The notes under the pieces: model-generated
Database searches by the model: none
What the model was told of the DNA's origin: nothing
Seen by the model: only the letters and a program-made list of their open reading frames with translations
DNA from: a virus
Direction: 5' to 3' (one strand)
DNA: 64,000 bases
IMG/VR virus record: IMGVR_UViG_3300031576_000026
Coordinates: 16,292 to 80,291 of that record
Translations under genes and position numbers: made by a program
Shown here: positions 4,451 to 64,000 of the stretch, piece by piece
How the letters are laid out: each line of letters starts with the position of its first letter
Position numbering within the stretch: position 1 is the first letter of the stretch

Positions 4451-5266
4451 ATGAAAACAGCATTGATATTATCTGGGGGTGGTTCTAAGGGTTCTTTCCA
4501 ATTTGGCGTATTAAAATATCTAATAGAACGCGGATTTACTCCAAATGCCGTATATGGTACTTCAGTAGGTGCATTAAATGCTGCTGGATACGGATATCAA
4601 AATATAGGGGGATTAGAAGAGGTTTGGAATAATATTAAGGGGAAATCAGATATTCTTAAATTTAACTGGTCTAGTTTTATTTTACGATCAACTGGTCTTT
4701 ATAATACCAAGCCCCTAAGAAAAATCCTAGAAAAAAATATCATAGGTCAGCCCATTTGTGATGTTTATGCTTGTAAGGTTAATTTATTAACCGGAGATAT
4801 TGTTTACAGTAAACATACGGATTCTGATTTTATCAGTTCTGTTGAAGCTTCTGCTTCCATTCCTGGTATTATGTCACCCGTGGATGATGAATGGGTAGAT
4901 GGTGGGATTAGGGAACAAACACCTTTAAAACAAGCAATATTGGATGGAGCTAAAAAAATCATAGTCGTTCTATGTAATCCTTGGGAATATAATCCAGTAA
5001 AAACTAAGTGTGGTAATTGGTTGCAAAATTCTCTACGGGCTGTTGATATTTTATCACATGAAAATTTTCTTAGTGATATTTCTTTATGTTTAGAAAAAAA
5101 TAAAGATTCGGAATATGAGTATATTAAAATGGAGATTTATGCCCCACTGCAACATTTAAATGACGCTTTAGATTTTTCTCCAGATAAAATCAAAGAAAAC
5201 ATAAAACTCGGTTATGAAACCGCCCAACTTGGACCTCTTAAAACGGATAAAAATTATGCACTATAA
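4451..5266 (+). CDS. Patatin-like phospholipase
   Basis: A 271-residue patatin-fold acyl hydrolase, a family that cleaves acyl chains from membrane phospholipids with a Ser-Asp dyad. The hallmarks are visible: the oxyanion loop GGGSKG at residues 9-14, the nucleophile elbow GTSVG with Ser38, and the catalytic Asp150 in VDGGI. There is no signal peptide. Length fits a single-domain bacterial patatin. It lies between virion genes and a membrane protease gene, so it may act on the host envelope during entry or release, or be carried in the virion. The family call is firm; the role is not. Confidence 0.9.
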   Translation: MKTALILSGGGSKGSFQFGVLKYLIERGFTPNAVYGTSVGALNAAGYGYQNIGGLEEVWNNIKGKSDILKFNWSSFILRSTGLYNTKPLRKILEKNIIGQPICDVYACKVNLLTGDIVYSKHTDSDFISSVEASASIPGIMSPVDDEWVDGGIREQTPLKQAILDGAKKIIVVLCNPWEYNPVKTKCGNWLQNSLRAVDILSHENFLSDISLCLEKNKDSEYEYIKMEIYAPLQHLNDALDFSPDKIKENIKLGYETAQLGPLKTDKNYAL

Positions 5267-5611: not shown

Positions 5612-6350
5612 AAAATGGCTAAAACATGGCATATTATACTTAACGATGGGATCTTTCCTATATTTTTATTTTAATCTACATCAATGGAAACACAATACAA
5701 CAAGAAATTATGCAGATAAAAGAATTGTCAAACTTTTATCAAAAAATAGGAACAGGGGCGGAACGGGTGTTCATATAAAATTACCAAGTGGAAAAACAGC
5801 AATTCTAACTAATAGTCATGTATGTGAGAGTTTATTAAAAAATGACGGGATTTTTGTTGAATATAGCCCCGAACGATTACTACCAAAGAGAATTATTGAA
5901 ATTTCCGATGATACCGATTTATGTTTAGTAGAGCCCGTAGAAGGAATTAAAGGTTTAAAATTAGCCTCAAATGCCTATAATGGGGAACTGGTCTCGGCTT
6001 TGGGATTTCCCAATCTAAACCCATTGACAATGGTTGAAGGAGAATTAGTCGAAAAAAAACCCATATTAGTTTTAGATCATATTATTGATGTTGATGACCC
6101 AGATGATACGTGTTCTCTACCCAAGAATAAAAAAGATAAGATAAATTATTGGTTTACGGAAGTAGAAGCGTGTTTTACTAACATAGATGCTTATTGGACA
6201 ACCCTTGTTGTTAGACCTGGTAACTCTGGGAGCCCCGTTTTAAATAAATGGGGAAATGTTGTGGGATTAATTTTTGCTGGAGATCAAAGAACTGGATGGG
6301 GAGCTGCTATTCCATTAGAACAAATAAAAGATTTTATTAAACCCTATTAA
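5604..6350 (+). CDS. Membrane-anchored trypsin-fold serine protease
   Basis: A 248-residue protein with an N-terminal membrane segment (residues 7-25) followed by a chymotrypsin/HtrA-like protease domain. The triad is intact: His72 in LTNSHVC, Asp105 in DDTDLCLVEP, Ser208 in RPGNSGSPV. There is no PDZ domain. The anchor suggests it works at the inner membrane facing the periplasm. It follows the patatin gene and a small membrane protein with overlaps. It may process envelope proteins or protect the infected cell; the substrate is unknown. Confidence 0.85.
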   Translation: MLKKWLKHGILYLTMGSFLYFYFNLHQWKHNTTRNYADKRIVKLLSKNRNRGGTGVHIKLPSGKTAILTNSHVCESLLKNDGIFVEYSPERLLPKRIIEISDDTDLCLVEPVEGIKGLKLASNAYNGELVSALGFPNLNPLTMVEGELVEKKPILVLDHIIDVDDPDDTCSLPKNKKDKINYWFTEVEACFTNIDAYWTTLVVRPGNSGSPVLNKWGNVVGLIFAGDQRTGWGAAIPLEQIKDFIKPY

Positions 6351-14497: not shown

Positions 14498-16297
14498 ATG
14501 TCATCACCTTTTATATGGAATGGAAATTTTGCTAAATCATTAAAACAAAGATTAAATCTTAATGATAAAGCATATATTCTTCCGGAAACTACTGATCCTA
14601 CCGTATCAGCAACCGATGCACCTAGAAGTTCACTTGTTTTACAAGATACGGGCTCTGGTGGTAAATTATTCATAAAACAAGATACAGGTTCTTCTACTAA
14701 CTGGAATCAGTTATTAGATTCATCAGCTAGTGATGCTTTATATCTTCGTTTAAATGGATCTAATTCAATAACTTCTTTTATTGATTATACCCAAACTGCT
14801 ACACCAGCTAGTCCTGCAGCGTCCCACAATCGATACTATTTTAAGAGTAACAATCGTCCAGCTACTTTAGATAGCACGGGCCAAGAAGTTTTTCAAGTTT
14901 GGCAAAATACTGCTTTTAGTACATTTATTGGAACTGCAGCAACTACTACAACAGCAGTTGCAAATACGGCTGCCGGTTTTGATGCTGGACTTTCCCTAAC
15001 TACAGGAGCTGTAAATGCTTTATTTGGGACGAATGCAGGAAAAGCATTAACAACAGGATCTGCAAATGCTTATTTTGGAGTAGCAGCAGGAGAATTTACT
15101 ACAACAGGAGGGAACAATACATGTGTTGGAAGGAGTGCTGGAAATTCCCTTACTACGGCGGGGGATTGTACTTATGTTGGATCAGAAGCAGGAAAACTCG
15201 CTACAATAGGAACGAGAAATACATGTATTGGAATGAAAGCTGGAACTTCCCTTGTTACTGCGGAAGATTGTACTTATGTTGGCGGTTTTGCGGGTATATT
15301 CGCTACGGGAAGTCATAATACTGTTGTAGGATCATTAGCTTTTAATGGTCTTGCATCTACTGGCAGTTTTAACACAGCTATTGGTCGTGCTGCTATGAGC
15401 ACTGGCACTATAACAGGAACTCAAAATACTGCACTTGGGTACAACGCACTTCTGGAACTAACTACAGGAATTCAAAATACAGCTTGTGGTGCAGCAGCTT
15501 TACGTCAAGTTACGACTGGAAGCAACAATTCTGCTCTTGGTTTAGCTGCTGGTGTAAATGTGACCACAGGTAGCGATAACATCTTTCTTGGAGCTAACAA
15601 CCTTTCAGGTTCAGCTGTAACAGCTTCAAATGAATGGGTTGTTGGTAGTCAACTTAATCCAATTAATAATGCATATTTTGGTCGTGGATTTTCGTCTCCA
15701 ACTTTAGCTGACTTTACCATGGGAGTTGCTGGGGCAACAGGAACTGATATCTCGGCTAATGCTTCAGGCTTCAAAATAGCTGGCGCAAGAGGAACAGGAA
15801 CTGGCGCTGGTGGGCACATCTTTTTTCAGACTGCTCCTGCGGGTGCTACGGGATCTACACAAAATGCCCTTGTTAGCCGATGGGAGATCGAAGATGTTAG
15901 CGGACATCTTTTAGCTTCTACGGACAATGTCTCAGACATTGGCGGAGTTACCAGGCCAAGAGATTTATTTTTAGGACGGCATTTTTCTTTCGAAGGGAAA
16001 TTAAAAGGCCATAGAACTGCAGTAGCGGATGCAAATTATACTACAGTTGAAGGAGACTATATTGTTGCCTTTTCCTCTCTAACTCTTCCTAGGACTGTTA
16101 ACTTAGTTGCAGCTGCAACAGCGGGTAGTGGCACAGTTCTTTACATAAAAGACGAAGCTGGAACTGCAGGAACAAACAACATCACAGTTGATCCAGCAGG
16201 TGCAGAAACCGTAGACGGATCTACTACGATTCTTATTAGTGCAAATTTTGGAGTTGCAAGACTTTACTCAAATGGAGCTAATTGGTTTACTTTTTAA
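14498..16297 (+). CDS. Tail fibre with YadA-head-like repeats
   Basis: A 599-residue fibre. Residues about 155-370 contain at least ten short repeats of the form N-t-x-[VIL]G-x-A-[GA] (for example NTCVGRSAGNSLTTAGD, NTAIGRAAMSTG, NTALGYNALLELTTG), the left-handed beta-roll pattern of trimeric YadA and Hep/Hag proteins. The C-terminal 100 residues form a small beta tip beginning HRTAVADANYTTVEGDYIV. A trimeric receptor-binding fibre is the natural reading. Confidence 0.8.
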   Translation: MSSPFIWNGNFAKSLKQRLNLNDKAYILPETTDPTVSATDAPRSSLVLQDTGSGGKLFIKQDTGSSTNWNQLLDSSASDALYLRLNGSNSITSFIDYTQTATPASPAASHNRYYFKSNNRPATLDSTGQEVFQVWQNTAFSTFIGTAATTTTAVANTAAGFDAGLSLTTGAVNALFGTNAGKALTTGSANAYFGVAAGEFTTTGGNNTCVGRSAGNSLTTAGDCTYVGSEAGKLATIGTRNTCIGMKAGTSLVTAEDCTYVGGFAGIFATGSHNTVVGSLAFNGLASTGSFNTAIGRAAMSTGTITGTQNTALGYNALLELTTGIQNTACGAAALRQVTTGSNNSALGLAAGVNVTTGSDNIFLGANNLSGSAVTASNEWVVGSQLNPINNAYFGRGFSSPTLADFTMGVAGATGTDISANASGFKIAGARGTGTGAGGHIFFQTAPAGATGSTQNALVSRWEIEDVSGHLLASTDNVSDIGGVTRPRDLFLGRHFSFEGKLKGHRTAVADANYTTVEGDYIVAFSSLTLPRTVNLVAAATAGSGTVLYIKDEAGTAGTNNITVDPAGAETVDGSTTILISANFGVARLYSNGANWFTF

Positions 16298-17855: not shown

Positions 17856-19451
17856 ATGTCACAATTAGCATGGCGCAATCCGGCCAGAATGATGGATTCT
17901 GCATCTACGGTATTGCCTAGTGGTTCTGGTCCGGTTGTTGTTGATAGTGTTGTTGTTCAAAATCATGACCGTATTCTTTTTACACAATTAAGTGATCCGT
18001 TAAAAAATAATAGGATATTTAAACCCAATAATATTGGTGTTAGTGTTAACTGGGTCTTAGAAAAAGATGGATATGATGCTGTAAAAGCTGAATTTCATGG
18101 AGACCCTTCAGATGGTGAAATTCTTTATGTAAGAGAAGGGGCAATTCATAAAGACAAAATTTTTGCGTTTAGATCTGAATCTAATACATGGGATAATATT
18201 CTTCAAGGTGCTTCTGATATCGTAGCTATCCACAGGGATAATTCTCAACCTCCTAGTACAAATATTAGCTGGAATAATTTTAAATTAATGGATTTGGCTA
18301 ATGCAACTTTAGCAAATGATGCTATTAATAAAGGCCAATTAGATGCAGCAATTGCTAGTGTTTCTATGGCGGCAGATCCAAACGCCATTCGTAAAAATAA
18401 TACAAATCCTCCAATCACTGATATTTCTTGGGCTGGATTTCGTTTAATTAATTTGGGTAATGGTCTTGTTGCCGGTGATGCTGTTAATAAATCACAATTA
18501 GATCTTAAAGCTGATCTTAGTTATGTTAATTCGCAAAATGCTGCTCAGGATTTAGTAATAGCTGCTAAGGCAAATACAAGCTATGTTGATTCACAAAATG
18601 CTGCTCAAGATGCAGTAATCGCTCTTAAGGCTGATAAAACATATGTTGATTCACAAAATGCTGCTCAAGATGCAGTAATCGCTCTTAAGGCTGATAAAAC
18701 TTATGTAGATGCACAGGACACTCTTAAAGCTAATATTACATATGTTGATTCACAAAATGCTGCTCAAGATGCAGTAATCGCTCTTAAGGCTGATAAAACA
18801 TATGTTGATTTTCAAAATGCTGCTCAAGATGCACAAATTGCTATTAGATTAAGAACAGACGGTGGCAATCAAATGGCTGGTGATCTAAAATGGTCATCTG
18901 ATAATTTATTTGACATTGGAGCCTCTGGAGTTAACCGTCCAAGAAGTGGTTATTTTGGAACTTCTCTTGTTGTTGGCAATTCTTTCACTATTACATCTAA
19001 TAGTGTTGCTGGAGATGAGACTAGTCATCTTACTATTAAATCAAAGCCCTCTTCTACAGCACCTTATTTCTTTAAAGTACTTCCCTCTGATACCACAGGT
19101 AGATCAGAAAGAATAAGGGTTGGAAAAATAGATTTAGTGTATGGCGAAGCTGGAACCGGTGGATTTTTCGACAATGACGGCTTTGGTATAATGAATAACG
19201 TTAATGGTCAACCTATAGCAGAATTAACAATAGGTGGTGGAACTATTAGATTTAGAGGATCTGATGTTCTAATTCATGAAGGACTTAGGGTTATAGGTTT
19301 TGTTAATCTTTCTGGTGGTCATATGAATTTAGCCCCCAAAACCACAGCACAAAGAGATGCATTTGGTGCTACGGCTGGGGCCATTGTGTTTAATTCAACC
19401 GTTGGTAAACATCAAGGATTTGATGGAACTAACTGGAATGATATGTATTAA
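17856..19451 (+). CDS. Tail fibre with tandem TYVDSQNAAQDA repeats
   Basis: A 531-residue fibre starting behind AAGGAG. Residues about 1-110 look like a phage-particle docking domain. Residues 220-330 hold at least five copies of a 20-residue unit, TYVDSQNAAQDAVIALKADK, with helical coiled-coil character. The rest is beta-rich and ends in a collar/tip segment (TTAQRDAFGATAGAIVFNST followed by FDGTNWNDMY) typical of fibre C-termini. Confidence 0.75.
   Translation: MSQLAWRNPARMMDSASTVLPSGSGPVVVDSVVVQNHDRILFTQLSDPLKNNRIFKPNNIGVSVNWVLEKDGYDAVKAEFHGDPSDGEILYVREGAIHKDKIFAFRSESNTWDNILQGASDIVAIHRDNSQPPSTNISWNNFKLMDLANATLANDAINKGQLDAAIASVSMAADPNAIRKNNTNPPITDISWAGFRLINLGNGLVAGDAVNKSQLDLKADLSYVNSQNAAQDLVIAAKANTSYVDSQNAAQDAVIALKADKTYVDSQNAAQDAVIALKADKTYVDAQDTLKANITYVDSQNAAQDAVIALKADKTYVDFQNAAQDAQIAIRLRTDGGNQMAGDLKWSSDNLFDIGASGVNRPRSGYFGTSLVVGNSFTITSNSVAGDETSHLTIKSKPSSTAPYFFKVLPSDTTGRSERIRVGKIDLVYGEAGTGGFFDNDGFGIMNNVNGQPIAELTIGGGTIRFRGSDVLIHEGLRVIGFVNLSGGHMNLAPKTTAQRDAFGATAGAIVFNSTVGKHQGFDGTNWNDMY
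18522..18840. repeat. 60-nt tandem repeats inside fibre gene
   Basis: Copies beginning near 18582, 18642 and 18740 are almost identical over about 55-60 bases, and earlier and later copies at 18522 and 18800 are more diverged. The period is a multiple of three, so copy number can change without breaking the frame. This marks recent unequal recombination in the fibre shaft. Confidence 0.85.
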
Positions 19452-41224: not shown

Positions 41225-41589
41225 GCAGTCTCCTTATTGAAACCATTGGAATTTGAGTAATAAATATTCTTAATGCCGACATCTTTTATGAGCTGAAAAC
41301 AAAAGGAGCAAGGCTTAGCTAAAGCCATCTGACTTGTTTTAGTTTCTCGGTAAACATATATATCACATCCATTCAGATCTTCTCTTCCAGCATTAAGAAT
41401 TGCGTCTAATTCAGCATGCAGCGTTTTCCATTTATTATTACTGCGCCTGTGTGTTCTATTCTTATTGAACCCCATTCCTATGATCTTATTCCCTTTAACT
41501 ATAATAGCCCCCAATTTATGGGGTTTATAATTGCTCTTATAACTTAATTTTCTGGCTACATCAAAAAATCTAACCTTCATAATATCCAA
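41221..41589 (-). CDS. Deoxycytidylate deaminase family protein
   Basis: A 122-residue zinc deaminase: HAELDAIL with the catalytic Glu, and PCSFC for zinc. Size and context fit conversion of dCMP to dUMP, which the ThyX encoded nearby would methylate to dTMP. A different cytidine-type substrate is possible. It overlaps the polymerase gene by 13 bases. Confidence 0.8.
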   Translation of the reverse strand: MDIMKVRFFDVARKLSYKSNYKPHKLGAIIVKGNKIIGMGFNKNRTHRRSNNKWKTLHAELDAILNAGREDLNGCDIYVYRETKTSQMALAKPCSFCFQLIKDVGIKNIYYSNSNGFNKETA

Positions 41590-44345
41590 TCAATCGGTTT
41601 TACTTTATGCTTTGCAAGCCAATCATTGGTTTTTGAGAAATACTTTCCGCCTAGAAATCCTCCAGATTGATTTAAAGGAGAAGGATGATTTCCAGTTAAT
41701 ACCATTATTTTATCATGAATGGCTAATTTTGTCAATTTATCTTTAGCATATTTTCCCCAACATATAATAACTATAGGTTTTTTCAAGTTAACTAATTTCT
41801 TTAAAACACAATCAGTGTATTGTTCCCAACCAATATTTGAATGTGACAAAGACTTTTCCTCTTCTATAGTTAAAATACTATTTAATAATAATACTCCTTG
41901 ACTTGCCCATGGACTAAGATCTCCACTAGAAGGAAAATTAATGTTTAGATCGGCTTGAAGTTCTTTAAATACATTTTTTAATGAGGCTGGAATTTTAGAA
42001 TGACTAACAGAAAATGCTAACCCACAAGCATCTTTCTTGTTGGGATAAGGATCTTGACCTATAATAACCACTTTGGTTTTATCTGGGTTAAAATACTCAA
42101 ATGCTTTAAAAATTTTATCCTTTCCCGGTAATATTGATTTTCCTGAAGATTCTTCTTTTTGAATAAAATCCAATGCTTTGGTTTTATACAAGCTCATTTC
42201 AAATTTAAGTAATTGATTTTGATGTTTTTTTAATGAATAATTAGGAAAAATTTTAGTGTCTAAAATAGTTGAAAATCTTTGTGCTGTTTTATGAAGCTTT
42301 TCCAAGAATTTAGATTTACTATGATCACCATCGAAATCTTCTATTAGTGCTAAACTATTATCTGTTTTAAAATAACAATAAATCCTATCTCCTTCCACAT
42401 AATCTGTTTCTTCTATTGCATCTCTAACTTTTGACTCATTGGTTCTTTCGGATGTTAAAGTTTTATCTGAAATAGTCATCCGTTTAACCCAGCGCTTAAT
42501 ATCTTTAATATCAAGTATTTCTTTAACATAATCTTCATAAATTTTCAAATAGCCATGTGTTTCTTTTATAATACCACCAACGATTTTCTCTAGAAATTCT
42601 CTGAGGGCTGGTTCTAGAGTGGGGCTTTTTAAAGCAGATCCTTTATATTTAATATCTCCATTTTCTTTATGAAGAACATAATTTTTACTTTTGATAACAA
42701 TAAATTTCGGATAAAATCCATCATCGTCCCATCTAATTGTCTGAGGAAAATTCCCAGATAGTTCATCTTTTAATAATATTCTTTGTTCCTTATGTATAAA
42801 AGATCCATCCATATGGCCAAAAGATATACTATCTGTATCAACATTTGCTATGAGCATATTTCTAGAATTTACCCAGTCAATTCCCCTTTGTAATATCTCT
42901 CTGCCGTAACGAGTAACCGTGGCTGCTCCTTCTCCATAATTAAAAGCCAATCCCGGAGCACCCATAAATCCATATAAAGAATTAATAAATATCTTTTCAG
43001 ATTGCTCTAGATGTTTATAATAATCTTCTCCGGTATCTTGGGCAAGCCCTTTGTTTTTTAATCTCTCAGTTCTAAAATATTCTACTAAGTTTAAAAAATA
43101 TTTATCGGGATCTTTTTTCTCCGGATAGATTTTATATTCCATCATAATAGACGGATAAAGAGAAGCTATGTCAAGTTTTAAAATATTATTAAATATTCCC
43201 GGATTACCCCAAGAAATTGCTCCTTCAAATTCTGGTATAATATCAGCTTTGGGAATAGAGTGATCTTTCTGTAAATAAGATCTTAACATTATAGAATTTA
43301 ATTGACTTCCGCTCGCACTCTGCATTGTGGCTTGGAAAGATTTGGGTATACTTTGAGCCATATAGAAATATGGAGGTATAAATTTATCAAAAAGAGTAAG
43401 AGAATCATCTGCATCGTGTATACAATAATCTTTAATTTTATCCCATTCTTGGGTTATTTTATAATTATCCCTTATTCGGGATGCATCATAAAAGACACGA
43501 TCTTTATTTTCCCAGCCTTCTTGTTTAATAATTGCTTTTAATCCATAACTATCATATTTTTTTTCAACACTGTCGGCTTTGATAGCCAAAAACATTGTAT
43601 CTATTATATTTCTGCCATATATATAACAATCATGATAATGTAAATCTCTATTTCCGTCTACACGAAAATCTGATTGATATTTATCATTTATTTTCAGGCT
43701 GCTGCCATCCCTACCTATATCTAAACTTATATCGTATTTAGAAGCTATATAATTTAAATAAGGTAAATCATATCCAAAACAATTATGACCGAGAAGAATC
43801 GAAGGATCTATTTTTCTAACCCAGGAGCACCAATCCTGTATCATGACTCCTTCATCTTCATAATCATCATATGCAAATAGTTTTCTGGTTATTGTATTAC
43901 ATCTCCTGAATGTATTTGAAATTAATAGAAGTTTTGCGTCTTCAGTGTGTTTTAATGTCGTTGCTTCAATGTCAAAGGCCAATACGCCTATATCTGAAGG
44001 CTTCATATCTTTAAAATAACCGTAGCCTTCCTTAATCATTAAAGATTCTTTTGAATTATATATAGAAAAAGTATCTTGGCCTTTGTAGTGACGACGACAA
44101 TCTAGAAATTTTCTTTTATTATCATAGTATTGGATAAATCCATAATGTAAATCTCCATTTAATCTTTTCCATTTACCCTCTAATGACTTTGAGGACAATA
44201 TCCAATATGTATTAGGAAAAAATTCACTGGTTACGGAACCATCCGGATTTTCTCTAAAAATTTCTACGCTATTATCTTTTGGTTCAATGGCCACGATATA
44301 GTTTATTGGTGATTTGCCAAAGATTAATGAATTGATATTATTCAT
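41577..44345 (-). CDS. Family B DNA polymerase fused to uracil-DNA glycosylase
   Basis: A 922-residue single frame. Exonuclease motifs: FDIEATTL (near 120), GHNCFGYDLPYL, YCIHDADD. Polymerase motifs: A LDIASLYPSIM, B INSLYGFMGAP, C NVDTDSISF. After about residue 730 comes a complete family 1 UDG: GQDPYP with Asp765, GLAFSV, LLLNS, and HPSPL with His887. Fusion is direct, without a stop or frameshift. The UDG could clear uracil at the fork or serve as a processivity element, as poxviral D4 does for its family B polymerase. Family calls are firm; the role of the fusion is inference. Confidence 0.92.
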   Translation of the reverse strand: MNNINSLIFGKSPINYIVAIEPKDNSVEIFRENPDGSVTSEFFPNTYWILSSKSLEGKWKRLNGDLHYGFIQYYDNKRKFLDCRRHYKGQDTFSIYNSKESLMIKEGYGYFKDMKPSDIGVLAFDIEATTLKHTEDAKLLLISNTFRRCNTITRKLFAYDDYEDEGVMIQDWCSWVRKIDPSILLGHNCFGYDLPYLNYIASKYDISLDIGRDGSSLKINDKYQSDFRVDGNRDLHYHDCYIYGRNIIDTMFLAIKADSVEKKYDSYGLKAIIKQEGWENKDRVFYDASRIRDNYKITQEWDKIKDYCIHDADDSLTLFDKFIPPYFYMAQSIPKSFQATMQSASGSQLNSIMLRSYLQKDHSIPKADIIPEFEGAISWGNPGIFNNILKLDIASLYPSIMMEYKIYPEKKDPDKYFLNLVEYFRTERLKNKGLAQDTGEDYYKHLEQSEKIFINSLYGFMGAPGLAFNYGEGAATVTRYGREILQRGIDWVNSRNMLIANVDTDSISFGHMDGSFIHKEQRILLKDELSGNFPQTIRWDDDGFYPKFIVIKSKNYVLHKENGDIKYKGSALKSPTLEPALREFLEKIVGGIIKETHGYLKIYEDYVKEILDIKDIKRWVKRMTISDKTLTSERTNESKVRDAIEETDYVEGDRIYCYFKTDNSLALIEDFDGDHSKSKFLEKLHKTAQRFSTILDTKIFPNYSLKKHQNQLLKFEMSLYKTKALDFIQKEESSGKSILPGKDKIFKAFEYFNPDKTKVVIIGQDPYPNKKDACGLAFSVSHSKIPASLKNVFKELQADLNINFPSSGDLSPWASQGVLLLNSILTIEEEKSLSHSNIGWEQYTDCVLKKLVNLKKPIVIICWGKYAKDKLTKLAIHDKIMVLTGNHPSPLNQSGGFLGGKYFSKTNDWLAKHKVKPIDWIL

Positions 44346-52348: not shown

Positions 52349-53275
52349 TTAAGATTCTTCATTCTCATGAATCTCCATTCCATCATGCCAAGAATTCTTA
52401 TGTGCTTCTTTATAATCATCTAAAGCTTCTTTATCATTGGGAATTATGCTATCAGAAACTATAATAAATTCACCCGAATTTGAAATATTGGTTATATGAT
52501 TCTTATCAACACTTAACTTCGATACTATACCAAATCCAAACTGACTACCCTTAGATATAGCCTTTAACGTCCTAGCTTTCTTTGTACGGATCACTAATGA
52601 AGATGCGAGATAGATACCATCTCCTCCATAAGGAACGAGCGTTGTGGGGGCTCCTGGGAACTGTGGGGGTTGTCTGTAAGCATGGTTAACAAATGTTAAT
52701 CCCACATAATAAGGACTTGATACCTTCCTTGTATTATTAATCTTATGGCTAAATATTCTCATATTTTCTCTAATAACCCTAGCCGCCTTCATCATAGCAC
52801 TCCCAACTTCAAACGTGCCATCCTTATTTTCCTTTACAGAATCAACACTTACAGCATTACCAATAGAATCAACAAATATCATAACATTGGTTGGAAGTCT
52901 TCCACTATTAACATCTGACACTATTCTATCGATTTTCTTGAATATTTCTTCTAAATATGATACATATTCAACAATACAATCATTCTCATCAATTCCCATC
53001 ATCTTAGCTCTATCCCAAGATATCTTACCTTCACTAATAATAAATACTGGTAATATGTCTTGTTTCTGGGCTTGGGCTGCTGCGTGAAATAATATGCTGG
53101 TTTTACCGCTATCACTTAATCCAAAAATCTGTGTTACATGGCCTAGGGGTAGTCCTGGGAGTCCTAAAACGGCTTGTATGGCATCATTAAGAGCAATGAA
53201 TTTATCTTCCTTTAAGGGAGTATCAGATGATTTTATTGTCTTTTTATATTCTTGTAGATTGAATTTACGAGTCAT
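52349..53275 (-). CDS. RecA/UvsX-like recombinase
   Basis: A 308-residue RecA-fold ATPase: Walker A GLSDSGKT (52-59), Walker B VMIFVDSIG with Asp136, and an ISEGKISWDRAKMMGI segment like the L-strand of UvsX-type proteins. It lacks the long C-terminal domain of bacterial RecA. Together with the nuclease and the putative annealing protein it forms a phage recombination set. Confidence 0.85.
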   Translation of the reverse strand: MTRKFNLQEYKKTIKSSDTPLKEDKFIALNDAIQAVLGLPGLPLGHVTQIFGLSDSGKTSILFHAAAQAQKQDILPVFIISEGKISWDRAKMMGIDENDCIVEYVSYLEEIFKKIDRIVSDVNSGRLPTNVMIFVDSIGNAVSVDSVKENKDGTFEVGSAMMKAARVIRENMRIFSHKINNTRKVSSPYYVGLTFVNHAYRQPPQFPGAPTTLVPYGGDGIYLASSLVIRTKKARTLKAISKGSQFGFGIVSKLSVDKNHITNISNSGEFIIVSDSIIPNDKEALDDYKEAHKNSWHDGMEIHENEES

Positions 53276-53432: not shown

Positions 53433-54095
53433 TTAATCCTTTTTTACTTGATTCTCCACTTGATTTCTCACTTGATTCCTCACTTGATTCCATACTTGAT
53501 TTCTCACTTGATTCCCCACTTGATCCCCTACTTGATTCCACACTTGATCCCTCACTTGATTCTCCACTTGCTTATACACTTGATCCCTCACTTGATCCCT
53601 CACTTGATTCCACACTTGATTCCCCACTTGATTCGACACTTGATTCCACACTTGATTCTTCACTTGATTCCCCACTTGATCCCACACTTGATTCCCCACT
53701 TGATTCTTCACTTGATTCCCCACTTGATCCCACACTTGATTCCCCACTTGATCCCACACTTGATTCCCCACTTGATTCCCCACTTGATTCGACACTTGAT
53801 CCCTCACTTGATTATATACTTGCTCCTTCACTTGATTCCACACTTGATCCCTCACTTGATCCCTCACTTGATCCCTCACTTGATTCCACACTTGATTCCC
53901 CACTTGATTCGACACTTGATTCCACACTTGATTCCACACTTGATCCCTCACTTGATTCCTCACTTGATTCCACACTTGATTCCCCACTTGATTCCTCACT
54001 TGATTCCCCACTTGATTCCACACTTGATTCCACACTTGATTCCTCATTACTTTATTTAACACTTTATTCAATACTGGTTGTTTTTCTAATTTCAT
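53433..54095 (-). CDS. QV tetrapeptide-repeat protein
   Basis: A 220-residue protein. After MKLEKQPVLNKVLNKVMR it consists of about 50 uninterrupted copies of [N/D]-Q-V-x, where x is mostly Trp, Gly or Arg, with some Lys, Glu, Ser or Tyr, and it ends QVKKD. The ATG overlaps the upstream stop by four bases (ATGA). This phase coupling selects this frame over the open frames on the other phases. It has no signal peptide. A regular four-residue repeat suggests a solenoid or fibrous fold; the function is unknown. Confidence 0.75.
   Translation of the reverse strand: MKLEKQPVLNKVLNKVMRNQVWNQVWNQVGNQVRNQVGNQVWNQVRNQVRDQVWNQVWNQVSNQVGNQVWNQVRDQVRDQVRDQVWNQVKEQVYNQVRDQVSNQVGNQVGNQVWDQVGNQVWDQVGNQVKNQVGNQVWDQVGNQVKNQVWNQVSNQVGNQVWNQVRDQVRDQVYKQVENQVRDQVWNQVGDQVGNQVRNQVWNQVRNQVRNQVENQVKKD
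53449..54048. repeat. 12-bp tandem repeat array 1
   Basis: About fifty units of a 12-base repeat, CACTTGATyCCn on the plus strand. The seven bases CACTTGA are nearly invariant and most changes fall on the remaining positions. It codes for the QV repeats on the minus strand. Confidence 0.95.
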
Positions 54096-54400
54096 TCAAA
54101 TAATCCGAAATCTGTGCTAAAAAATAATAGGCTGGGCATTCCCATGCCTATCATATTATAGCCAAAATTTTCTTCATTAAAATCATGATAAAGCAATGTT
54201 TGAGCAAAAGTTGATGCAACTATAGTCATGGCCCAACTAAACGCTAAAGATTGTGCTGGAGAAGCATTAGCTTGATATCTAGCTATTAAATATGTATGAC
54301 TCTGCACATAGGCCGCTCCCATTATATTTAATGTATGGTCTATTGCAAAAATCTTACTGGTGAAAAATAATATAAACAGAACTATTAATAGTCTTTTCAT
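54092..54400 (-). CDS. Exported hypothetical protein
   Basis: A 102-residue protein with a clear signal peptide (KRLLIVLFILFFTSKIFA, cut before ID). The mature part is small and amphipathic with several glycine-rich hydrophobic stretches, possibly membrane-associated. It is coupled by ATGA to the QV-repeat gene, so the pair may act together. Confidence 0.55.
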   Translation of the reverse strand: MKRLLIVLFILFFTSKIFAIDHTLNIMGAAYVQSHTYLIARYQANASPAQSLAFSWAMTIVASTFAQTLLYHDFNEENFGYNMIGMGMPSLLFFSTDFGLFE

Positions 54401-61792: not shown

Positions 61793-62028
61793 AGTTTTTT
61801 AGTTTCGGTCATTGTTGGGGCTTTATATAAGGATATATTATTATCATTACTCCAATCTAAATACAAGGTAATTGACATTAGGTTAGATGGAGATAACTTG
61901 ATAGACTTATAGAATTCCCCTCCTGGTAGAGAAACTTCATCACTAGCTGAGATAGAGATATGTGTGACATTTTTTAACTTCAACTCATTTAAAGCTTTTT
62001 CCATGTCTATTATTTTAAATCCAACCAT
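61789..62028 (-). CDS. Hypothetical protein
   Basis: A 79-residue protein with small beta strands (LKNVTHISISASDEVSLPGG). Shares its first base with the end of the subtilase gene. Function unknown. Confidence 0.5.
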   Translation of the reverse strand: MVGFKIIDMEKALNELKLKNVTHISISASDEVSLPGGEFYKSIKLSPSNLMSITLYLDWSNDNNISLYKAPTMTETKKL

Positions 62029-62765
62029 TATTTTATACTCTGTAAAAGTTTACCAGTCCAAATAGCTGTAGAAACAGAAGTTCCAGATAAAATTGAATTA
62101 CTTACTTTAATATTACATCCCGGTTCATATAGATCAACTGGGCCATTTCTATTAGAAAAATAAGCAATTTTTTTATCCCTACATAAAGAACCGACTACGT
62201 AAAAATTAGGATTAGTTAAAGCATAGCAAGCTGGATAATAATTACAAGAAGTCTTTGAAAAATCCTTACTTTCATTTCCCGCTGAAACATTAACAATTAT
62301 ACCATGATTAAGAGCTTTAATAAGTAAATCTTTTTCCCATAAAGAGAATGTCGGACCTCCTGCACTAATGTTGATAATATAAGAATTTAATTCTATGGCC
62401 CTCTCAATGCCTTTACCATAATTACTTATACTACCTTTACCATTACTAGTAACTTTTATTATTAGTATACATTGTTTTTTATGATTCATATAAGCTGAAA
62501 TCAGATTGGCTAGATGCGTTCCATGTCCTAAAGAATCGTGATGGTTAGTATTGGTTAAATCTAGTATTGGATTTTTACATATAAATTTTTCGATTCCATT
62601 TGGGTTTACTCCAGTATCTAACAAAGCTACTTTAGTTCTAGTCTCATCATTTGTTATTGCAATTTCTCTCTCATTAGCAAAACATAAAGCAATATTAATA
62701 ATAAATAAAAGAGCAAAAAAGAATATAAACACTGTTAAAAATTTCTTGTAGTCAGAATCACTCAT
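62028..62765 (-). CDS. Subtilisin-like serine protease
   Basis: A 245-residue subtilase with a hydrophobic signal/anchor (residues 9-29). The triad is complete: Asp50 in LLDTGVN, His81 in GHGTHLA, Ser230 in SGTSVSTA; Asn164 in SAGN is the oxyanion residue. Cysteine pairs suggest an oxidising location such as the periplasm. There is no propeptide of usual length. Substrate unknown. Confidence 0.88.
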   Translation of the reverse strand: MSDSDYKKFLTVFIFFFALLFIINIALCFANEREIAITNDETRTKVALLDTGVNPNGIEKFICKNPILDLTNTNHHDSLGHGTHLANLISAYMNHKKQCILIIKVTSNGKGSISNYGKGIERAIELNSYIINISAGGPTFSLWEKDLLIKALNHGIIVNVSAGNESKDFSKTSCNYYPACYALTNPNFYVVGSLCRDKKIAYFSNRNGPVDLYEPGCNIKVSNSILSGTSVSTAIWTGKLLQSIK

Positions 62766-62956
62766 TTTTTTACCTTACATACAAACATTGGATTAATTGA
62801 TTTTCCTACTGTTCTGATGTAGGATTCATGAAATGATCGCATGGCTTCGTAGTTATTTTTATAAAGATGTAAGTCTATTATGAGATTAACTATACAATAA
62901 ATTAAAAATCCAGTCAAGACAAAATATAACAGATGAAGTAATTTTAATAGATTCAT
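62762..62956 (-). CDS. Small membrane protein
   Basis: A 64-residue protein with one transmembrane segment (LLYFVLTGFLIYCIVNLIIDL). It overlaps both protease genes by four bases, so it could couple or anchor them. Confidence 0.5.
   Translation of the reverse strand: MNLLKLLHLLYFVLTGFLIYCIVNLIIDLHLYKNNYEAMRSFHESYIRTVGKSINPMFVCKVKK
62889..62917 (-). promoter_or_regulatory. Sigma70-type promoter
   Basis: Minus strand: TTGACT (62917-62912), 17-base spacer, TATAGT (62894-62889). It lies inside the small membrane gene, upstream of the subtilase. Weaker than the others. Confidence 0.5.
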
Positions 62957-63675
62957 ATATTTATATCCAAATTAAATCGCCATTTGAGATCTTTGAGAAA
63001 AAGTAAATTCTTTTCTTCACCTAAATTCACATAATAAGAAAGTTGTTCTTTAGTTGTTTGGCTGCCAGCGTGAGTTATTCCTATTACTTCCTCTTTGTCA
63101 TTAAAAAGTGGTCCTCCGCTGTCACCAAAACAAGAAGCTGCTCTATTGTAAGGACCAAAAATAGAACGCAAAGGAGTTGATAAAACTATATATCCATCGT
63201 TATCGATATCTAAAATAACATTTGTTCCTGTTCTTTTTATATTTGAACCTTGGCGAGTATTAATATCATTGCATCCATATCCAACCAACCTAACGTTAAA
63301 GGTTAAATCAAATCCTATTTTAGAAATATGGTCAGATATGTCATAATTGAATATGAGCATAGCTAAATCATTCGGGCTAAAAAGTATATCTGTGTTAGTA
63401 TAAATTTTATTAGTTACATAACTATTAGCTAAATAATGGACAACCGCCGCAATATTCTTATTAACACAATGAGCTGCAGTTAGAATTGAGTTAGGACTTA
63501 TGAATACACCGCTGCATAATCCACCGGAAGAACTTTTAACTCGAATCACAGAAAGGTAATCAGTTGTTTGTATTACTTTTTCAGATGATGGGTTTGGTGG
63601 GCTGGGTACGGTAGAGCCGCAGCTAATAACTAATGTTATTAGTATAATTTCTCCTGTTACACATAGAAAATTCAT
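62953..63675 (-). CDS. Trypsin-like serine protease, lipoprotein
   Basis: A 240-residue S1-family protease. Signal peptide with lipobox VISC (Cys19) predicts lipidation. Triad: His69 in TAAHCV, Asp103 in NDLAML, Ser186 in GDSGGPL. Disulfide-type cysteines are present. Phage trypsins of this class are unusual; bacterial homologues abound in Bdellovibrionota. It follows the second QV-repeat gene with a TAATG overlap. Confidence 0.88.
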   Translation of the reverse strand: MNFLCVTGEIILITLVISCGSTVPSPPNPSSEKVIQTTDYLSVIRVKSSSGGLCSGVFISPNSILTAAHCVNKNIAAVVHYLANSYVTNKIYTNTDILFSPNDLAMLIFNYDISDHISKIGFDLTFNVRLVGYGCNDINTRQGSNIKRTGTNVILDIDNDGYIVLSTPLRSIFGPYNRAASCFGDSGGPLFNDKEEVIGITHAGSQTTKEQLSYYVNLGEEKNLLFLKDLKWRFNLDINI

Positions 63676-64000
63676 TAAACTTTACCCACTTTTGCTATTT
63701 GATTTAATACTTTCCCCACTTGATTCCTCACTTGATCCCACACTTGATCCCTCACTTGATCCTCCACTTGATTATACACTTGATCCCCCACTTGATTCCA
63801 CACTTGATTATACACTTGATTCAATACTTGATTCCCCACTTGATTCCACACTTGATCCCTCACTTGATCCCTCACTTGATCCCTCACTTGATTCCCCACT
63901 TGATCCCCCACTTGATCCCCCACTTGATCCCTCACTTGATCCTCCACTTGATTATACACTTGATCCCCCACTTGATTCCACACTTGATCCCCCACTTGAT
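63675..64000 (-). CDS. QV tetrapeptide-repeat protein, second copy (partial)
   Basis: Open to the window edge; at least 108 residues of [N/D]-Q-V-x repeats ending in NQVGKVLNQIAKVGKV. A GTG at 63995 is just an in-repeat valine, so the true start is beyond the window. Its stop overlaps the trypsin-like gene start. Same composition as the copy at 53433. Confidence 0.7.
   Translation of the reverse strand, partial: QVGDQVWNQVGDQVYNQVEDQVRDQVGDQVGDQVGNQVRDQVRDQVRDQVWNQVGNQVLNQVYNQVWNQVGDQVYNQVEDQVRDQVWDQVRNQVGKVLNQIAKVGKV
63716..64000. repeat. 12-bp tandem repeat array 2
   Basis: At least 23 units of the same 12-base repeat as at 53449-54048, in the same orientation, reaching the window edge. 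Confidence 0.95.

Follow-up and report, generated by a model that had tools for sequence, protein, structure and literature searches.

A stand-alone tetrapeptide-array gene

The window analysed here is a stretch of 64,000 nucleotides (positions 16,292 to 80,291) of an 80,291-base contig, the virus record IMGVR_UViG_3300031576_000026. Positions 53433-54095 of the window, on the minus strand, hold a stand-alone tetrapeptide-array gene, an ORF running from ATG to stop whose product of 220 aa consists of an 18-residue leader, MKLEKQPVLNKVLNKVMR (54042-54095, minus strand), exactly 50 [N/D]QVx units of 12 bp each (53442-54041, minus strand) and the residues KD. A preliminary description of this DNA had put the array at about 50 such units after an 18-residue leader, and the ORF and the unit table confirmed this with an exact count of 50; TRF reported a period of 12 and 49.8 copies with a score of 762. 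The ATG of the array gene overlaps the stop codon of the upstream gene 54092-54400 (ATGA; 54095/54092).

The same description had noted a near-invariant DNA core with variable bases at two codons, which the unit-by-unit comparison bore out. The sequence CAAGT is invariant, being present in all 50 units, and the Val codon is GTG in 46 of the 50 (third base G 46, A 4); apart from the Val third base in those 4/50 units, base changes are confined to codons 1 and 4. Codon 1 begins with A in 37 units and with G in 13. Codon 4, which encodes the variable residue x, is TGG, AGG, GGG or a close neighbour of these, with T 19, A 17 and G 14 at the first base and G 39, A 8 and C 3 at the second, thus departing from the commonest base in 31/50 and 11/50 units, respectively.

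Seventeen distinct 12-mers occur among the 50 units, and the array contains an internal duplication in which an identical run of six units (72 bp; copy 1 at 53862-53933 and copy 2 at 53586-53657, both on the minus strand) recurs at a lag of 23 units. An identical run of this length was reached in none of 500 shuffles of the unit order. Together with the unit-level differences between near-identical loci described below, this duplication supports the earlier suggestion of recent expansion or homogenisation.

The window contig and its other arrays

The contig derives from a tailed phage, in which a major head protein, a family B DNA polymerase, a DnaB-like helicase, a UvsX-like recombinase and a ribonucleotide reductase were recognised. 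Five arrays lie on the 80-kb contig, including 53433-54095. Three precede the window, at contig positions 422-586 (minus strand), 4943-5197 (plus strand) and 5729-6046 (plus strand). The second array of the window (63675-64000, minus strand) is cut by the contig end; its stop codon TAA and the ATG of the gene directly downstream, which encodes a trypsin-like protease (62953-63675, minus strand; PHROG protease match, E 2.8e-8), overlap. The position of arrays close to both contig ends suggests that the assembly broke inside an array region.

The next gene downstream of 53433-54095 encodes a UvsX/RecA-like recombinase (52349-53275, minus strand; RecA E 3.5e-14, UvsX-like E 1.6e-25), which places the array in the DNA-metabolism strand; the array adjoins the UvsX and ribonucleotide reductase genes, and the structural genes lie on the opposite strand. 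The upstream gene (54092-54400, minus strand) encodes 102 aa with a signal-peptide-like N-terminus. The preliminary description had coupled the array to an exported-protein gene, and the signal-peptide-like start and the stop codon overlapping the array ATG agree with that claim. As a conserved partnership the coupling did not hold up: a family search with 54092-54400 gave no convincing match and a search for its relatives came back empty. The conserved-partner test of the window neighbours likewise found no relatives of 62953-63675 or of one left-end gene.

Several other features of this phage were recorded. The DNA polymerase B ORF (41577-44345, minus strand) has a C-terminal part (residues about 714-920) with a match to a different PHROG, one of unknown function. 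This part contains IIGQDPYP, similar to the family 1 uracil-DNA glycosylase motif, and by its sequence the ORF is apparently a polymerase-glycosylase fusion. Tandem repeats are found in probable tail or fibre-like proteins at 17856-19451 (60 and 99 bp) and 14498-16297 (102 bp). A subtilase-like protease is encoded at 62028-62765 and a patatin-like protein, recognised by eye, at 4451-5266, in addition to the trypsin-like protease of 62953-63675.

The repeat frame is coding

An open frame is weak evidence for translation, because a 12-bp repeat can be open in all frames. We therefore compared the three frames of 246 free-standing arrays, most of them on viral contigs. In the NQV frame, 94% of these arrays have an ATG at most 90 nt upstream and 84% have an ATG that overlaps a stop codon, and the corresponding figures are 14 and 11% for the second frame and 11 and 6% for the third; the arrays were chosen by the openness of the NQV frame, which biases the openness column of this test and leaves the start-codon columns unselected. 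The window gene follows the same pattern, as it has its own start and stop, is overlap-coupled to its neighbour as in the 84% of the 246 arrays, and carries a run of [N/D/S/A/G]QVx in its coding frame.

Codon usage points the same way. Gln is encoded by CAA or CAG and Val by GTA, GTC, GTG or GTT, near-uniformly within a locus and differently between loci, so that it is the peptide, and not the DNA, that is conserved. Lastly, the array lies in frame within a longer protein in 23 distinct DUF6745 genes. As the start and stop signals, the codon differences and the in-frame fusions all agree, the NQV reading frame is coding, and translation of the array frame, on which the preliminary description depended, is supported. 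The reversed repeat pattern, used as a control, gave almost no matches in array contigs.

Variation is concentrated at amino-acid-changing sites

Across 84 loci, the mean within-locus entropies at the three codon positions were 1.05/0.87/0.37 bits for the first codon, 0.01/0.09/0.09 for Gln, 0.24/0.00/0.30 for Val and 1.51/1.00/0.70 for x. The silent sites Q3 (0.09 bits) and V3 (0.30 bits) thus vary little compared with x1 (1.51) and x2 (1.00), and most variation changes the amino acid. The view that one or two sites per unit carry amino-acid-changing variation while silent sites are near-fixed accordingly extends well beyond the window gene. The simplest reading of this distribution is recurrent homogenisation combined with selection that keeps different x residues. 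Selection for combinatorial variation seems likely on these grounds.

In genomes of 28-71% G+C, most x codons are TGG or codons one or two steps away from it (AGG, GGG, CGG, GAG, TTG and TCG). Arg is mostly AGG or CGG and Gly mostly GGG, and AGG and GGG are usually rare codons. This set fits descent from a Trp-type unit, and an unrecognised mutation bias could also account for it. No clear signal of charge balance emerged between x and the residue that follows it.

Comparisons of close relatives show how arrays change. Over 8.5 kb (3.8 kb upstream, the gene and 3.3 kb downstream), contigs L170 and L171 differ by exactly one 12-bp array unit and are otherwise identical. An identical 867-nt DUF6745 gene is shared by five contigs, whose array genes differ in number and include chimeras. 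Between L164 and L165 the DUF6745 gene is unchanged and the upstream region differs by 0.1%, and the array cluster has many differences of 12 bp and larger. Such change is not universal, since the arrays are identical in the pairs L057/L127 and L128/L129 despite 6 and 19 differing sites, respectively, in their DUF6745 genes. Whole-unit changes in repeat number and order can therefore outpace change in the flanking DNA, although differences between metagenome contigs may partly be assembly artefacts.

Arrays are widespread in phages and mostly linked to DUF6745

The array is not the isolated oddity that it had first appeared to be. The array protein matches 75 viral loci, mostly linked or fused to DUF6745. 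The species-level genome collection yielded just two matching loci, of which one, in a Dojkabacteria assembly, encodes a fused protein and the other, in a Flavobacteriaceae assembly, a free array. Pfam identifies DUF6745 (PF20530) in the fused array proteins, in which the QVxx array lies between an N-terminal helical region and the DUF6745 domain, and of 43 contigs picked for free arrays, 26 have a DUF6745 match that exceeds the curated cut-off.

Searching from the DUF6745 side, we found 223 stretches in viral contigs, of which 80 were examined; after removal of duplicates, 86 distinct genes were classified. An array is fused to the gene in 23, a free array lies nearby in 42, and 21 have neither in the fetched flank, fractions that are enriched and do not amount to a census because the queries and alignment came from array-bearing loci. 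The free arrays are on the same strand as DUF6745 in all 42 cases and within 150 nt of it in 24. A tree of 81 DUF6745 domains implies at least three changes of fusion state on well supported branches and seven by parsimony, a count that is approximate because several of the fused rows are long branches. Copy number in DUF6745 proteins ranges from none to about 61 units, with, for example, 3 units in L163 vs more than 50 in its relative L010. The DUF6745 protein gp174 of phage Ma-LMM01 has no array; a uracil-DNA glycosylase gene follows gp174 in that phage.

Repeats with related scaffolds were also found, namely SSLx in the circular phage genome cta39025, xSVx in L167, QLx in a Mycobacterium prophage and xRVx in L151. 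In L164 (5862-10858), about fifteen array genes stand behind DUF6745; their repeat is rearranged, with Trp often before Gln rather than at x, and with x mostly Ser, Tyr, Phe or Arg. The C-terminal part of DUF6745 is joined to another short repeat (GNGDGYGDGYG...) in L037 (2476-3300), which indicates that DUF6745 can carry other repeat types.

DUF6745 has no assigned function and is present in phages and on actinobacterial, cyanobacterial and Deinococcus plasmids. Its neighbours in phages are replication, recombination, nucleotide and DUF932 genes, and virion families are absent from its most frequent neighbours. In bacteria, DUF6745 adjoins the uncharacterised STM4011-STM4015 cluster (radical SAM proteins, a hydrolase and STM4015) on Deinococcus and Streptomyces plasmids (L179, 5368-12360; L182, 1-4828). 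One neighbour protein of DUF6745 in a viral contig matches AmoC, the ammonia/methane monooxygenase subunit C (E 7.5e-109).

No DUF6745 was found in the 80-kb window contig, nor among the Pfam matches listed for the window protein, and the three closest relatives of the window phage by UvsX have neither arrays nor DUF6745; a pattern match in the UvsX-related contigs was a short unrelated SKFV repeat. The DUF6745 link of the window gene is consequently drawn from the shared array and not from its own neighbourhood. The DUF6745 partner of the window arrays may lie in an unassembled part of the genome, or these arrays may be orphans.

Sequence matches and predicted structure

Database matches of the array itself were discarded. 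The Pfam matches fell in 37 unrelated families, were mostly weak and covered short stretches, and we read them as low-complexity artefacts, including those to YpjP, EnY2 and Trigger_C, which exceed the curated cut-offs. The NCBIfam, PHROG, PADLOC and PDB sequence matches likewise comprised many unrelated families and were read as composition artefacts. Matches to a Blattabacterium plasmid (runs of RTQV) and to Aeromonas and Enterococcus plasmids represent other low-complexity repeats. In the first of these, the 3-kb plasmid pMADAR_001, an unannotated ACGTACGCAGGT repeat that reads as RTQV (L174, 63-380) is probably unrelated low complexity.

AlphaFold2 modelled the N-terminal region and the DUF6745 domain of the fused L018 protein with high confidence, and the array as a long helix of low confidence. 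The prediction for arrays is weak, with a pLDDT of about 69 alone and 44-63 within the fused protein. For the window protein, two long helices (residues 6-132 and 135-219) were predicted to form nearly one continuous rod (pLDDT about 69, pTM 0.33), which gives a hint that the window array may be a helical rod. A PDB fold search with the fused model returned nothing below E 0.4, and its best match in a viral structure library was the DUF6745 protein of Microcystis phage LMM01.

Proposed function

Our data are consistent with a model, held tentatively and at somewhat less than even odds, where the window gene is a stand-alone array of a phage repeat family that acts with DUF6745 as an early protein with a re-tunable binding surface. 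In this [N/D/S/A/G]-Q-V-x family, Gln and Val would form the constant scaffold, and x and the residue after it the variable face. The array protein would act with DUF6745 in trans when the two are split and in cis when they are fused. The pair would be early and intracellular rather than part of the virion, since DUF6745 is found next to genes for replication, recombination and DUF932, and the window array has recombinase and ribonucleotide reductase genes as neighbours. From the anatomy and the variation of the arrays, we infer a variable binding surface, and its repeat face would bind a partner that changes fast, most probably a factor of the host or of a competitor. Homogenisation would erase silent variation, with selection keeping different x residues in play. 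As the unit is only 12 bp, length and order could be changed in a single recombination event.

A more far-reaching form of this proposal, which we consider possible but doubtful, is an undescribed two-part phage system, with DUF6745 as the common body and hypervariable arrays as arms that recombination reshuffles to track a target in the host or a rival phage. The arms would be fused to the body or encoded by up to about fifteen tandem translation-coupled genes.

Passive expansion of low-complexity DNA, in which a 12-bp unit slips or recombines and is tolerated and the array is only a flexible or helical spacer, would account for the wide range of copy number in DUF6745 proteins, for the difference between L163 and L010, and for the single-unit indel that alone separates L170 from L171. 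We regard this explanation as rather unlikely, because hundreds of stand-alone arrays have retained a start and a stop of their own in the same frame, different genomes preserve the Q-V core with different codons, and the variation is almost only amino-acid-changing; nor does it predict clusters of many array genes beside DUF6745. Codon differences (CAA/CAG; GTA, GTC, GTG, GTT) also bear on the idea that the 12-bp repeats are DNA-level elements, such as iterons, recombination sites or a partition site, with translation incidental. The DNA core is indeed very uniform inside one genome, but it differs among genomes while the peptide is kept, arrays lie within long fused ORFs, and start and stop signals mark one frame only; we therefore rejected this very improbable alternative. 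The predicted long helix and a repeat number that varies in the manner of a ruler would suit a structural role in the virion, in which the array would serve the particle as a rod or fibre or set its length. This is improbable given that DUF6745 adjoins replication, recombination and nucleotide genes and not head or tail genes, and that the window array neighbours UvsX and ribonucleotide reductase, on the strand opposite to the structural genes.

Two further explanations concern how the variable residue arises or is used. Targeted hypermutation of the x codon, similar to that of a diversity-generating retroelement, could explain why x codons cluster around TGG in genomes of such different G+C content. 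Against it, no reverse transcriptase (RVT_1) was found in the window contig, itself a fragment, the changes are not adenine-directed, and near-identical loci differ mostly by gains, losses and chimeras of whole units, all of which make this mechanism quite improbable. Least plausible is an array that serves as a RiPP-like substrate peptide for a radical-SAM enzyme: the repeat contains W-N-Q and W-D-Q motifs and DUF6745 adjoins the STM4011-STM4015 radical-SAM cluster on Deinococcus and Streptomyces plasmids, but only 9 of 30 array contigs have radical-SAM genes, the window contig has none, and in the contigs where positions were compared these genes stand apart from the arrays.

If the proposed role is true, these arrays represent a widespread way for phages to vary a protein surface without a retroelement and without a large repeat scaffold. 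They also offer a first handle on DUF6745.

Comparison with known systems

In the literature searched, we found nothing on DUF6745, PF20530 or the repeat motifs. The earlier statement that no characterised family resembles the array thus stands in a narrow sense. The array and its DUF6745 partnership are new to the literature and family collections that were searched, and the ingredients, a domain of unknown function and a short repeat, are of familiar sorts.

Pentapeptide repeats (PF00805) share a very short repeat with constant and variable positions, but the window array has a period of four and not five, lacks A(D/N)LXX, and has no PF00805 among its listed Pfam matches. A heptad coiled coil was also rejected, as the array has a strict four-residue period and no seven-residue periodicity. 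Diversity-generating retroelements similarly focus amino-acid-changing variation on a few codons; here, in contrast, we found no reverse transcriptase in the window contig and no adenine-specific pattern, and change is mainly by whole units. TAL effectors and similar proteins combine a constant scaffold with one or two variable residues per repeat and change fast through repeat shuffling. The likeness of TAL effectors to the array is one of working principle only, with repeats of 34 residues vs 4 here and no sequence relation. The window protein is array only, and the DUF6745 domain is missing from both it and its contig; DUF6745 proteins themselves carry the same QVxx array, either fused to the domain or encoded by stand-alone array genes directly adjacent.
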